A stretch of DNA of 64,000 nucleotides from Chondrosia reniformis (Eukaryota > Porifera > Demospongiae > Chondrillida > Chondrillidae): contig OX359200.1 of assembly GCA_947172415.1 (NCBI GenBank), positions 250,501-314,500 on the forward strand, read 5' to 3'. Under the pieces are notes generated by a model, which made no database searches, was not told the DNA's origin, and saw nothing but the letters and a program-made list of their open reading frames with translations. A program made the translations under genes and the position numbers. This document shows positions 24,285-29,957 of this stretch, one piece after another. Each line of letters opens with the position of its first letter. The stretch's first letter is position 1.

Positions 24285-25452
24285 TTAACAGTGACATTTT
24301 CTTGCTCTATGAGTAATAGTGGGAGATTTGGAGTTACTGGTCAAACAAAAACTCGACTCTAAGTTGCTATCCACTTTAACAACAATGCGATCAGCTATCG
24401 ATTGAAACAGTTGATTTATATTGAGACCCGTCTTGGCACTTGTCTCAAAGAAGAGAGCATTGTGATCCTCAGCCACAGCCCGACCCTCAGCGGTGTCCAC
24501 CGTTCTCTCCTCCTCTCTGTCCACCTTGTTGCCTACAATGGCCACAACTGTGTCACTTGTACACTTCTCACTCACTAAGGCCAACCAGCTGGGTGTAACC
24601 TTGTCATGACCACGGAGGATGTGCTGAAATGAAGTCTATAAAGGTGACACAAAAGTGACTGATTTACAGTTCTCAAAGCATGTCAGATGGACGATTGAGA
24701 AAACTTACGTTTGAAGTAATATCATACACTACGATTACGGCCGATGCTCCATTGAAATAATTTCCAATTAGTGAACGAAACTATACATAAAGTACGTATA
24801 CACAAACTGAAGCTAAAAAGATCCAACACTCACTAAAGGCATTTGCATATGTTAAGAAGAAGCAACAGTTTCAAATGTCTCAATGAAACAGCAGAAACGC
24901 CCACCTAGCTAATCACTGCGAGGAGGCGATAATGTGGAACGTACCCTTTCCTGACCAGCTGTGTCCCAAACCACGCACCTAATTGTATCCCCTCCGCTTC
25001 TGGGGATTGTGGTCACATAGTTTTCTCTATTGAGAACGAGAAGACATATTTTAAGGGAGGGGAAGGATAACATTTCAACAAATGAAAGATATGATGAAAT
25101 AGAAAATTGTTAAAATGTAGAACAATTTTCTCTGTAGATAACTTGCTAAAATAGAGACACAATTTTAAGATTTCATGATATAGACTTCAGTTCATTTACT
25201 CTAGACTACATTTCAGATACTCTAACGCCTACTATGTAGGCCTATATACTCCCCTTACCATTAGCTATATACTCACAAAATGGTCGCTTTCGTACTGTCC
25301 GAAAAACGCATCTCGTTGTACCGCGTGAAAAGACAAGTTTTGCCTACTCCTGAATCCTGGAAACACAAGTAAGCAACAAGCTTAAGACACATAATGAGTT
25401 ATACTTCACTTACTCCTATTAAAACTATCTTTGCGCGACCTCCCGAGGCCAT
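24285..25452 (-). CDS. Rab-family small GTPase
   Basis: Five exons join in phase (25414-25452, 25277-25356, 24945-25026, 24709-24780, 24285-24623), giving 203 residues. All G motifs are intact: P-loop GDSGVGKT split across exons 1 and 2, switch II [8 protein letters not shown], guanine-specificity NKVD, and ETSAKTG. The C-terminus is KCHC, a CXC-type double geranylgeranylation site. The effector region (RFSDSTKATILENYVTTIP) is divergent: the usual PT(I/V)G of switch I is not clear, which makes subfamily assignment uncertain. Exon 3 carries an odd insertion (RSGGDTIRC) before WDTAG. It probably acts in membrane traffic. It shares a 42-bp start-to-start region with the Rab22-like gene. Confidence 0.87.
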
Positions 25453-25494: not shown

Positions 25495-26874
25495 ATGGCG
25501 GAAGGATTAAATGTTGTGGAAGCTAAAATTTGTTTATTGGGTGTAAGTAATCTGTTATTTGCGCATGTCATTTTTAATATTGTTTTAATTTTCCAAGTAT
25601 TGCTATACGAATTAGTCACCGTATGCGTTGCATCGGCCAATCGCCGTCGACAAAGATCCTTTAAATATGTTACGAACTGTACCACGAACGTCTGGCAATA
25701 GCTTTGTATTTCGTGGAATACCTGCTCCACTCATAGTATATCTTGTGTATGCAATAGTTGAGCTGGCGTGAGGCTGTATATTCTGTCCTTTCTCCCTCCA
25801 GGACCAAGGGGTGGGCAAGAGTAGCTTGGTTGGGAGGTTTATCAACGGAACGTTTAATCCTCATTTGACAACAACACTTGGGTACGTGTCTCCTTGTTGA
25901 TGTATCGTAAGCCTATCAAATCACGTGGTCTCGATATTACTTTCTGCATAACGCTTCTTTAATAATATTTACATTAATTGCATTTATTATTTATTATTAT
26001 TATAATGGCTTATTAATTGGTTAATTCATATTGATTACCCGCAGTCCATACAACCTCTGACAATGACTTTTATGCTCACATTCCTTATATGTGAATACTT
26101 TACTATACATGATACTTTTGTCATGTAAATGTACTACTTTGCAAAATAGAGCATCTTTTATGTCTAAAACTATTGTTGTGAAGGAAGTTACGTATCGCTT
26201 CCAAATTTGGGACACAGCTGGACAAGAGAGAGTAAGTGTTGTTCTAATAGACATCAAAGAGAAGTCATTAAATGTATTGTTTCTCTTGCCCATAGTATCG
26301 ATCCCTGCTTCCAATGTACTACAGAAATGCTGCAGCTGCTATTGTTGTATATGACATCACTGACCTTGTAAGTATCTCTATTTTATATGAATATGATCAC
26401 TGTTTATTCTGTTAGCTAACTTTTGTTTTTAGAAAACATTTAAAGTTCTAAAGAGCTGGATTAGGGAGTTACATAACTATGGTCCCAATGGGATAGTCTT
26501 GGCTGTCGCAGGAAATAAGTCCGACCTTGAGGACAAGCGAGAAGTTTGCAATTGAAACAGGTTCATATTTGCATTATTTGAAAGGATCTCTCTTGCTTAG
26601 GTATCAACAAAAGATGGAGAAATAGTGTCAGAGGAGAATGACGCTATTTTTGTTGAAACAAGTGCACTCACAGCTGAGAATGTGGAAGAATTATTTGTTG
26701 AAATTAGTAAGTTTAGCTTCAAATTATTATCCCTTGCTCATATCTGCATGGCTACACATATACACAGGTCAAAGACTACCACGATACAAACCAGATATGG
26801 TGGACACCATACTAGTAGAGAGCCAGGAGGATGTAAAGAGAGGTCCCTCAAGTGGTTGCTGCGGAAAGAAGTAG
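25495..26874 (+). CDS. Rab22/Rab31-like small GTPase (Rab5 subfamily)
   Basis: Seven exons join in phase (25495-25542, 25802-25881, 26150-26231, 26296-26367, 26433-26543, 26601-26706, 26768-26874), giving 201 residues. Motifs: KICLLGDQGVGKSSLVGRF (P-loop), TTTLGASFMSKTI (switch I), [20 protein letters not shown] (switch II), AGNKSDL, and VETSALTAENVEELF. It ends GCCGKK with paired cysteines for geranylgeranylation. GASFM(S/T)KT and the MYYR.AAAAI stretch are typical of Rab22A/Rab31, which act on early endosomes and endosome-TGN transport. The P-loop has Gln where Rab22A has Thr; a hydrolysis effect is possible but not established. ETSAK is replaced by ETSAL, a mild deviation in G5. Confidence 0.88.
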
Positions 26875-27172: not shown

Positions 27173-28756
27173 ATGGCGAACAACCGTGACCTAATTCGTG
27201 CACTGCCTAAAGCCGAGCTCCATCTCCACATCGAGGGAACCCTAGAACCAGATCTCATGTTTAGAATAGCAAACAGGAATGGCATTAGACTGGAAGGGAC
27301 AGTAGAAGACGAAAAGACGAAGAGAAATTTCAAAGATTTGCGCGATTTCCTAAACCTGTACTATAAAGCATGCGATGTGCTTAAGCGGGAAGAGGATTTT
27401 TATGATCTTATGTACGACTATTTGAAGAGAGCTGCAATAGACGGAGTTGAATATGTTGAAATCTTTTTTGACCCACAGACTCATACTAAGAGGGGAATCC
27501 CCTTTAAAACTGTTCTAGACGGTCTCTTTAAAGGTATAGTGGAAGGTCAAAGGACACTCAGCATCAAAGCTCGTCTTATCATGTGCTTCTTACGTGACCT
27601 GACAGAGAAGGAGGCAGAGGAGACGTTGAATCAATCACTACCATATTTGGACAAGATTATTGCAATAGGATTAGATTCAAATGAAGTAGACAATCCCCCA
27701 AGCAAGTTTAAATCGGTCTACCATCAAGCAAGCCAGCTTGGCCTTAAGCTGGTAGCCCATGCTGGCGAGGAATGTGGTCCTGTCTACATCAGGGAGGCAC
27801 TGGATGTTCTCCATGTGTCTCGTGTGGATCACGGAGTTCAGTGTCTGAAGGACCCTAATCTAGTTTCAACACTAGTAGAGAGGAGAGTTCCTCTCACCGC
27901 CTGCCCCTTGTCCAACAAGAAACTGAAAGTTATAGATCGCTTTTTTGGGGGACAGAATCCAGTTAAGGAAATGCTCCAGAAAGGGTTAATGGTGACAATC
28001 AATTCCGATGACCCCGCCTACTTTGGAAGTTATGTACTAGAGAACTACATGACCTTGGTGGAGGAGTGTGGAGTGACTTTGGAGGAGGTCCTTCAGCTCT
28101 GCAGGAACTCCTTTGATGCCTCCTTCATGCCTCCTCAAGATAAGGAACTGTACAAGCAGAGGCTGGACCACTGCGCACGCCAGTTTAACTTGCTTCCTAT
28201 TCCGAAGAGTGTAGCTATCTATGGATCACGATCTCCTGAAGAAGGAACAGAACAGTTTGAGTTTGCAAGAGAGATTGGAAAGATATTTGGTGCAAATGGG
28301 TATGAAGTGATCAATGGTGGTTACTCAGGGACAATGGAGGGAAGTGCTGTTGGTTGCAAGGAAGGAGGCGGAGTCTCAACTGGAGTAATCACACCAACAC
28401 TCTTTCCTCACAGGCAACCAATGGGGAATCCCCATCTATCCCAAATCCACATGACTTGTTCCCCAGTAGATAGGACTGGCAAGATGTTGGAGTCTACTTT
28501 TAATGTGATCGTTTTACCCGGTGGAGTTGGAACTCTTGGAGAATTCTTTCACACATGGTATTACTGCACTGCAGTGTGCCAGAGGGGGTCTTGCGTTCCC
28601 AAGATATATTTGAAGCGTGATCCGTGGGAATCAGTTGTGAAGAATATCTCTTCAATATTGGATATCAGTACCATTCAAGGAGTTGATCCATACTCTTATT
28701 TAGTGTACTTTGACACACCTGATGAAGTCTACAAACTGATTGAACAAAACCGCTGA
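27173..28756 (+). CDS. Adenine-deaminase-type enzyme fused to a LOG-family phosphoribohydrolase
   Basis: One uninterrupted exon encodes 527 residues from the ATGGCG at 27173; an in-frame ATG at 27131 is less likely. Residues 7-340 are an adenosine/adenine deaminase-fold amidohydrolase: LPKAELHLHIEGTLEP (zinc ligands H17, H19), HAGEE (H196, E199), RVDHGVQ (H220), TACPLSN and NSDDPAYF (D279, D280). The ELHLHIEGTLEP and DHGVQ forms resemble bacterial and fungal Aah1-type adenine deaminases rather than animal ADA. Residues 343-527 are LOG/SLOG-like: VAIYGSRSP, GGYSGTMEG and PGGVGTLGE (449-457), the signature of enzymes that split N6-modified AMP (or AMP) into free base and ribose 5-phosphate. Both active sites look intact. 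In sequence the two steps would be nucleotide to adenine-type base to hypoxanthine. Every immediate neighbour has introns; this gene has none, which suggests transfer from a microbe. Cytosolic, no targeting signal seen. Confidence 0.93.
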   Translation: MANNRDLIRALPKAELHLHIEGTLEPDLMFRIANRNGIRLEGTVEDEKTKRNFKDLRDFLNLYYKACDVLKREEDFYDLMYDYLKRAAIDGVEYVEIFFDPQTHTKRGIPFKTVLDGLFKGIVEGQRTLSIKARLIMCFLRDLTEKEAEETLNQSLPYLDKIIAIGLDSNEVDNPPSKFKSVYHQASQLGLKLVAHAGEECGPVYIREALDVLHVSRVDHGVQCLKDPNLVSTLVERRVPLTACPLSNKKLKVIDRFFGGQNPVKEMLQKGLMVTINSDDPAYFGSYVLENYMTLVEECGVTLEEVLQLCRNSFDASFMPPQDKELYKQRLDHCARQFNLLPIPKSVAIYGSRSPEEGTEQFEFAREIGKIFGANGYEVINGGYSGTMEGSAVGCKEGGGVSTGVITPTLFPHRQPMGNPHLSQIHMTCSPVDRTGKMLESTFNVIVLPGGVGTLGEFFHTWYYCTAVCQRGSCVPKIYLKRDPWESVVKNISSILDISTIQGVDPYSYLVYFDTPDEVYKLIEQNR

Positions 28757-28929
28757 AAGACTACCTGTGTAGTTGCCCAGTCTTTTGACTATGAACATAA
28801 GTTTTAAAGTTAGTTATTATTAAATTTATTATATTATTATGTAGCATTTAAAATTTAAAATTCTAAATAAAGCATTCAGCAATTATAATTATGCAATCAC
28901 GCGAAGCGGCACGTGAATTTTACAAAAAG

Positions 28930-29957
28930 ATGGCCGACGCTAACAAAGATATAGTGGTTACTAGTATTAATACATATCCACTGAAATCAGCTAAAGTTGC
29001 CAAAGTACAAGAAGCTCTAGTTACAAATCATGGATTGGAAGGCGACAGAACGTTTATGTTAATTGACGGGACCAAAGATCGCTTCTTGACCCAGAGAAAA
29101 ATTCCAGATATGGTCAAGGTCAGCGCTACGTATGTTGATATTGCAGGAAGGAAAGGTTTAAAGCTGTCAGCCCCAGGCGCGGCCGATTTACAGTTCGTAC
29201 CAAGACTAGATGGGAAGACGTTGGACGTTGCAGTTTGGAATCACACTGTTCCGGCGATCGACCAGGGAGATGAGGTTGCCGAATGGTTTAGTAAACTGCT
29301 TGGACCTGCTGCCAACTACACGAGGCTAGTTCATGTGGACGCGGCTAGCAGTAAAGTGCCTGTTCGACATCTTCCAACCAATCTACAAGAAGCACTTTCA
29401 TCAGTCTACCTTCTGTCCCATGACGATGCTCCAATCACTTTAGCTTCACAAGAGTCACTGGATGAATTAAATGGGCGCTTGCAGGAAAGGATTGGAAGTT
29501 CTGTTCCAATGAACCGATTTCGTATGAATATTGAAGTGAGTGGTTGCACCAAACCTTTTGATGAAGACGAATGGCTGGCATTTCGGATTGGAGATGTACC
29601 CTTCCTGGGTTATTATGACAAAGAAGTAAGTCAATATTCTGAAATTCTCACTTTACAGTGCAGTTAGCACTCACAGGTGGGGACGACAGTCTATTACGTA
29701 TATAGTCTATGAAACTGCCTATTTGCATGTCATTAACTTGTTCTGTGGTTTCTCCATTTTAGAGATGTAAGGTGACATGTATTGATCAAGAGACGGGCGA
29801 GCAAGACAAGTTTGGTCCTCTTGACATGTTGCGTACATTCAGGGCTCCCGATGGACCAGCTCATGCCAAATTTGGCCGAGGCATTGCACCACTTCATTAC
29901 CCAGCTACAATACATGTTGGAGACAAAGTGACTGTTCTCGAACGGGTCAAGAAATAA
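28930..29957 (+). CDS. mARC-like MOSC molybdenum protein
   Basis: Two exons (28930-29625, 29763-29957) give 296 residues from ATGGCC at 28930. An in-frame ATG at 28891 would add 13. The N-terminal MOSC_N beta-barrel (INTYPLKSAKVAKVQEA, GLEGDRTFMLIDG, FLTQRKIPDMV) is followed by the MOSC domain (APITLASQESLDELN, NRFRMNIEVSG, EDEWLAFRIGDV, YYDKERCKVTCIDQETGE). The Cys in ERCKVTCIDQETG matches the molybdenum-coordinating cysteine of mARC1/2. mARC reduces N-hydroxylated compounds, including N-hydroxylated nucleobases, with cytochrome b5 and its reductase, normally at the outer mitochondrial membrane. No clear N-terminal anchor is present here, so location is open. It follows the deaminase-LOG gene by 173 bp on the same strand and is convergent with RABGGTA. 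Confidence 0.88.

Follow-up and report, generated by a model that had tools for sequence, protein, structure and literature searches.

A deaminase and a LOG-like domain fused in a single-copy gene on a chromosome of the sponge Chondrosia reniformis

RESULTS

A single-exon fusion gene next to an intron-bearing animal gene

The window (the whole stretch of DNA analysed, i.e. 64,000 nucleotides of C. reniformis contig OX359200.1) contains the features listed in Table 1. The gene under study, P0001, occupies positions 27173-28756 of the plus strand as one intronless frame of 527 codons, from the ATG at 27173 to the stop codon at 28754-28756, with no internal stop, which confirms the single uninterrupted ORF announced by an earlier, sequence-only reading of this DNA. 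In each of the five remaining reading frames this segment is interrupted by 22 to 36 stops, and the chance of finding 527 open codons at the local base composition is ~1e-13. The product begins with a deaminase (residues 12-327), directly followed by a LOG/SLOG domain (residues 346-521), and the frame remains open through both. The gene gave one DNA match in the C. reniformis assembly searched (117,379,552 bases, 15 contigs) and is therefore single copy; it was also the sole match of the PF03641 profile in the whole sponge genome (E up to 1).

Table 1. Features of the fusion locus (positions of the window)
Feature	Position	Strand	Basis
Single-exon fusion gene P0001, 527 aa	27173..28756, stop codon included	+	ORF reading
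Adenine/adenosine deaminase domain, residues 12-327	27206..28153	+	PF00962, NF006850, TIGR01430, 3ou8
AELHLHIEGTL, metal-binding H17/H19	27212..27244	+	residue reading; Glu at the place of the Asp of ADA
HAGEE, H196 and catalytic E199	27758..27772	+	residue reading, aligned to 3ou8
DHG, H220	27827..27835	+	residue reading
NSDDPAYF, D279/D280	28001..28024	+	residue reading
LOG-like (SLOG cluster 4) domain, residues 346-521	28208..28735	+	PF18306, PF03641, 1weh
GGYSGTME, GGY subfamily motif, residues 382-389	28316..28339	+	alignment, residue reading
Catalytic Arg434, then Thr435 (Lys in AMP-cleaving LOGs)	28472..28477	+	alignment to CgLOGII Arg155/Lys156 (PMC5379747)
PGGVGTLGE, residues 449-457: Thr454, Gly456 (Asp/Glu in AMP-cleaving LOGs), catalytic Glu457	28517..28543	+	alignment
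Candidate poly(A) signal AATAAA	28866..28871	+	sequence reading
mARC/YcbX-like MOSC gene, exons 28930-29625 and 29763-29957	28930..29957	+	MOSC_N 1.1e-25, MOSC 6e-10 (Pfam)

The start of the MOSC gene is ~135-175 bases downstream of the stop codon of the fusion gene, on the same strand (a further in-frame ATG is present upstream, at 28891), and its two exons are separated by a GT-AG intron (29626-29762). Two more MOSC_N matches were seen on another contig of the sponge, C4, away from the fusion locus. Upstream of the fusion gene, a Rab-like small GTPase gene starts at 25495 (+); its introns were read by eye only. By eye, two such genes lie there back to back, one at 24285-24584 (-) and the other from 25495 (+).

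The GC content is 0.45 in the deaminase half, 0.44 in the LOG half and 0.472 in the MOSC stretch 29000-29499; the corresponding GC3 values are 0.49, 0.39 and 0.39 (first MOSC exon). Since these values resemble those of the adjoining MOSC gene, the base composition of the fusion gene is not alien. No near DNA match to the gene and its flanks was found among plasmids. The contig that carries the gene, C12, is chromosome-scale, and with the intron of the MOSC neighbour and the upstream introns seen by eye it bears out the claim that this is not a contaminant contig. The claim of a deaminase and LOG fusion in an animal genome holds as well.

The deaminase half

The N-terminal half scored above the cut-offs of three profiles: PF00962 (A_deaminase; residues 12-327, 1e-82, 278.3 bits for a cut-off of 27), NF006850 (449.2 bits for a cut-off of 419, 6.6e-135), a model with the broad name 'adenosine deaminase', and TIGR01430 (360.1 bits for a cut-off of 216.55, 9.1e-108). 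The best solved relative was 3ou8 (residues 7-319, E 4.6e-100), together with 3pan, 3pao and 3pbm. The PDB titles of these four and of 3rys say adenosine deaminase; we take 3ou8 to be the adenine deaminase Pa0148, and 3rys to be the adenine-active AAur1117. The whole HxH, H, E, H, DD metal and catalytic set of the ADA superfamily is present, H17, H19, H196, E199, H220, D279 and D280 all being in place, so that the site is complete, as first described. After the HxH and one further residue, the sponge protein and 21 close bacterial sequences have a Glu where ADA has an Asp.

Some match to P0001 was obtained in 252 of 296 genomes from the phylum of an Acidimicrobiia bacterium (L011), and 23 of the 296 contained, among the matches listed, a close deaminase (45-53% identity); plasmid homologues reached 51.6% among the best 40 of 111 records. 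In a tree from which L013 and L014 were left out, being the genes already represented by L011 and L012, the sponge and the 21 close sequences were split with 100/99 support from L015 and L017, which are 25-29% identical; these two are the only outgroup sequences, and the groups are named by identity, not by assay. Trees of each half had been called for. In the one, the deaminase does group with ADE-type sequences; in both, the sponge sequence forms a long branch, and a donor cannot be named. In a Lactobacillus reuteri plasmid, the deaminase homologue adjoins an NCS2 permease gene, which is in keeping with free-base substrates. The attribution of this half to the bacterial adenine-deaminase type holds, with 3ou8 as best relative and the catalytic residues present: it looks, from its sequence, like a fully equipped bacterial-type adenine deaminase.

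The LOG-like half

The C-terminal half was recognized by PF18306 (LDcluster4; residues 346-469, 1.5e-12, 47.8 bits for a cut-off of 26.3) and PF03641 (Lysine_decarbox; residues 388-521, 9.8e-9, 35.9 bits for a cut-off of 27). It fell below the cut-offs of TIGR00730 (3e-14, 53.2 bits for 96.35) and CtkRMPhLog (42.2 bits for 300). Among solved structures, the hierarchy was [TT1887 (1weh), 1.9e-13 > TT1465, 1.9e-11 > 3qua, 1.3e-10], and those titled LOG enzymes were at 5.9e-10 or weaker.

Thirty LOG loci were fetched (L016 and L037-L065) and 28 of them aligned, L047 and L061 giving no tblastn hit at 1e-3. The sponge half is 26-37% identical to these 28 relatives. By motif, 23 are GGG, four are GGY (28-33% identical to the sponge half) and one (L058) is GGT; the latter retains the Lys and has a Glu at the Asp position, and is seemingly a type I LOG. 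In CgLOGII, alanine mutants of Arg155, Lys156, Thr175 and Glu178 abolish AMP cleavage and that of Asp177 almost does (PMC5379747, partial text). All five residues are kept in 23 out of 23 GGG sequences. The GGY sequences, that of the sponge among them, retain Arg, Thr and Glu in five out of five, while Lys is replaced by Thr, Ile or Val and Asp by Gly, Thr or Ala; all five match both LDcluster4 and PF03641. They come together in the LOG tree, with a branch support of only 75/48, the sponge branch having a length of 7.2-7.7. L016, L037, L039, L049 and 1weh belong to the GGY subfamily, lack the Lys and the Asp/Glu and possess the Arg and the Glu.

The 'complete LOG signature' of the sequence-only reading is thus only partly right: PGGVGTLGE stands exactly at 449-457, but the active site tested in LOGs is not whole, with Thr435 and Gly456 in place of Lys and Asp. 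Judged by these residues, the sponge half departs from ordinary LOGs in keeping the LOG catalytic pair without the LOG adenine grip. Because the Lys and the Asp are missing, cleavage of AMP or of cytokinin nucleotides cannot be assumed, and AMP looks doubtful as a substrate. Substrates vary among LOGs, B. pertussis BP1253 cleaving GMP better than AMP (PMC6864091, partial text). No assay of a GGY-type protein was found in the LOG literature read. Moco carrier proteins lack the LOG Arg and PGGxGTxxE, according to the part of PMC5379747 available; this identity was rejected, the sponge half retaining both and matching 2iz5 only weakly (E 0.003).

A search of viral contigs with the GGY alignment gave eight relatives; one score is common to five of them and a second score to two. 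Four of the contigs (L066, L067, L068 and L073, position 1501 onward) carry GGY-type LOG-like proteins where PGG is changed to KGA, RGG or IGG and the later Glu is kept. The genes around four GGY LOG genes displayed no common theme by eye, the ORF picks being unreliable in this GC-rich DNA.

Search for the fusion in other genomes

The search for a deaminase plus LOG architecture was run on bacterial sequences. No single place covered 80% of the query in 111 plasmid records (best 40 of 111 listed) or in nine phage records, and among the matches listed from the 296 bacterial genomes none spanned both halves. The plasmid match H35 (76%) was rejected as a fusion: it is made of two genes, one coding for an adenosine deaminase and the other for an ABC substrate-binding protein. 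When the LOG half was used by itself, 75 plasmid records matched, none of them reaching 60% identity. A whole-protein scan of genome contigs, suited to close relatives only, gave two loci, both with the deaminase only, and viral contigs yielded no relative of the whole protein.

A LOG-half match (E 1e-7) was present in 20 of the 23 genomes that have a close deaminase; this was on the same contig as the deaminase in five, at least ~450 kb away, and on other contigs in 15. The separation is somewhat uncertain, given weaker LOG matches and the ends of contigs. At the 23 close-deaminase loci themselves (21 genes, flanks mostly 1.5 kb), the LOG half found no match with E up to 1. A bacterial fusion already known was, then, not found in the plasmids, the phages or the matches listed from the 296 genomes.

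Nor was such a fusion found in the literature on adenine deaminases, LOG/phosphoribohydrolases, sponges and metazoa, as judged by titles and the starts of abstracts. LOG-like proteins misannotated as lysine decarboxylases, Animalia included, are mentioned in passing in the available part of PMC6864091, so that a LOG domain in an animal is perhaps not new in itself. The two domain families are known ones; their arrangement and host are apparently undescribed.

Purine genes of the host

Seven other PF00962 matches are present in the sponge genome, as short pieces on contigs C7, C1 and C4. The C4 piece resembles the solved ADAL-type protein 8qch (4.8e-21), one C7 piece resembles ADA (3iar, 2e-12), and one C1 piece is ADA-like by eye. 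The gene for the fused deaminase thus comes in addition to these and belongs to another subfamily. The genome also holds pieces of tRNA isopentenyltransferase (PF01715) and of PF02738, presumably the molybdopterin-binding domain of xanthine/aldehyde oxidases.

At E 0.001 the sponge genome gave no match to APRT (TIGR01090), in a search whose control was positive in 13 of 14 named genomes. Below E 10 there were two matches of 15.8 and 15.6 bits, limited to profile positions 105-145; one of them (L083) has a phosphoribosyltransferase-like PRPP loop and is not APRT-like by eye. The published assembly is 71.1% complete by BUSCO with 16.8% missing (PMC12181767, partial text). This absence is weak evidence, because the search goes exon by exon and 16.8% of the BUSCOs are missing; at most, it hints weakly at deamination as the way in which adenine is used.

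DISCUSSION

A deaminase-LOG fusion sits on an animal chromosome, in single copy, with both domains and their catalytic residues. As to what it does, we favour a two-domain tandem enzyme in which the LOG half would split a nucleotide to free its purine-type base, which the deaminase half would then deaminate; we give this reading a probability of about 45%. The C-terminal GGY-type half would most likely cut the base from a nucleoside 5'-monophosphate by means of the Arg434/Glu457 pair, holding it in a manner different from that of the LOGs that cleave AMP or cytokinin nucleotides. The N-terminal half, with one metal bound, would substitute oxygen for the 6-amino group of the free purine base or for a small group on N6. 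The product would be hypoxanthine which, like the ribose 5-phosphate, would go to salvage or breakdown. Base release first and deamination second is the simplest use of the two kept sites.

Several observations speak for the tandem enzyme: the deaminase site is complete, with homologues at 45-53% identity in 23 of the 296 genomes (listed matches); the LOG half keeps the Arg, Thr and Glu essential in CgLOGII as well as PGGxGTxxE, in an open frame; and other bifunctional LOG enzymes exist, e.g. IPT-LOG (PMC8234997, partial text). Against it stand the Thr435 and Gly456 that replace the Lys and Asp on which full AMP cleavage depends in CgLOGII, the distance of the LOG half from its 28 relatives (26-37% identity) with scores under the curated NCBIfam LOG cut-offs, and the long branches of the sponge sequences in both trees. 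We infer activity of the two halves, the identity of the freed base with the deaminase substrate, and a physiological role. The sequence-only reading had proposed that the protein could turn an adenine-type nucleotide into ribose 5-phosphate and hypoxanthine; the catalytic residues of both halves agree with this, but the missing Lys and Asp make AMP doubtful as the starting nucleotide.

Among the alternatives, the best placed, still unlikely, is sanitation. There, the LOG half would remove adenine-type nucleotides that are damaged or carry an N6 modification (N6-hydroxylamino-, N6-methyl- or isopentenyl-), the deaminase would convert the bases to hypoxanthine and the neighbouring MOSC protein would reduce N-hydroxylated bases. 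Yeast LOG1 guards against 6-N-hydroxylaminopurine, for which monophosphate cleavage has been proposed, along with a possible loss of the hydroxylamine group through adenine deaminases (PMC5940212, partial text); YcbX and YiiM reduce 6-N-hydroxylaminopurine to adenine, and mARC reduces N-hydroxylated substrates (PMC3831636, partial text). The same available part of PMC5940212 reports, on the other hand, that a yeast aah1 knockout brings no significant change in sensitivity to 6-N-hydroxylaminopurine. The altered base pocket (Thr435, Gly456) and the MOSC_N and MOSC neighbour on the strand of the fusion gene would suit sanitation, but adjacent genes in animal genomes are often unrelated and the two further MOSC_N matches lie away from the locus, on C4. 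Besides, the sponge also has the ADAL-type exon on C4, and ADAL acts on N6-methyl-AMP. An N6-substituted base has its appeal, since such bases may be substrates of the deaminase, because of the role of yeast LOG1 and because the neighbour is of the mARC/YcbX kind. Taken to its end, this line leads to a purine clean-up by one protein, in which a GGY-LOG with an unusual pocket and a fused deaminase would work with the mARC-like reductase next door, possibly in replacement of APRT; we regard this as speculative and improbable.

The LOG-like half could also be a SLOG-type nucleotide-binding regulator of the deaminase, which we consider doubtful. SLOG domains serve as nucleotide sensors, and in CARF-ADA a nucleotide sensor is coupled to a deaminase. 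This precedent, the replaced base-contacting residues, and a top Pfam match to SLOG cluster 4 rather than to the classical LOG model would all fit, as would the weak PADLOC match of PsyrA to residues 345-410 (E 0.00099). However, a pure sensor would need neither the catalytic Arg nor the Glu, and both are kept in five out of five GGY sequences. The CARF_ADA model does match (8.7e-33), but over residues 3-332, i.e. the deaminase only; a CARF domain was not found by the Pfam scan (E 0.001), and far better matches to the deaminase half come from models of metabolic adenosine/adenine deaminases.

It is quite unlikely that the LOG half is a degenerate, inactive passenger and the protein simply an adenine deaminase. 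The divergence is strong (sponge branch 7.2-7.7) and the Lys and Asp are absent, as decay would have it, but the Arg, the Thr and the Glu are retained, the motif is entire and no stop interrupts the frame. Because the same two absences are common to the four bacterial GGY sequences, in which the domain is otherwise intact, they mark a subfamily, not decay.

Lastly, bacterial contamination or an assembly error can be dismissed as extremely improbable: the gene is intronless, its relatives found here are bacterial and 53 bacterial genomes were binned from C. reniformis (PMC12181767, partial text), but the position inside chromosome-scale C12 beside the intron-bearing MOSC gene, the GC of both halves (0.45 and 0.44, near the 0.472 of the MOSC stretch), the plasmids without a near DNA match to the gene plus flanks and the absence of a fusion-spanning match among those listed in the bacterial sets searched led us to reject it.

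If active, the tandem enzyme would define a purine route that is not drawn in animal metabolism. Literature on adenine deaminase in sponges and metazoa, by its titles and the starts of its abstracts, gave no case of animal use of free adenine via deamination, and we know of no animal described as using it so. An active protein would also provide a first handle on GGY/LDcluster4 cleavage, the fusion to a deaminase suggesting that the product is an amino-purine, and work on purine analogues would gain a natural tandem enzyme.

Comparison with known systems shows what the sponge protein shares and what it adds. The bacterial PRK09358/ADE adenine deaminases are like it in their metal and catalytic residues, in the Glu after HxHI and by 45-53% identity, but they stand alone whereas P0001 carries a LOG half. 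With TT1887 (1weh) and the LDcluster4 proteins it has in common GGYxGxME, the Arg 15 residues before the Pro and PGGVGTL-E, and, for 1weh from the alignment, the lack of Lys and of Asp/Glu at the adenine-binding places; 1weh has 171 residues and no deaminase domain is seen in it, while the four bacterial GGY sequences were compared over the LOG domain alone. PGGxGTxxE, the Arg, the Glu and the Thr are shared with the LOG phosphoribohydrolases (CgLOGII, TtLOGII/TT1465, yeast Log1 and plant LOGs). CgLOGII has, for full AMP cleavage, a Lys after the Arg and an Asp before the Glu; the sponge has Thr and Gly. Cad1, the CARF-ADA of type III CRISPR systems, likewise joins an ADA-superfamily deaminase to a nucleotide-binding domain, but its deaminase part is C-terminal where that of the sponge is N-terminal, and the CARF domain was not found in the sponge protein. 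Finally, in the IPT-LOG proteins of Rhodococcus fascians A21d2 and Claviceps purpurea, a LOG is fused, as here, to an enzyme of adenine-type nucleotides; these make cytokinin bases (PMC8234997, partial text), whereas the partner in the sponge would destroy the base by deamination.
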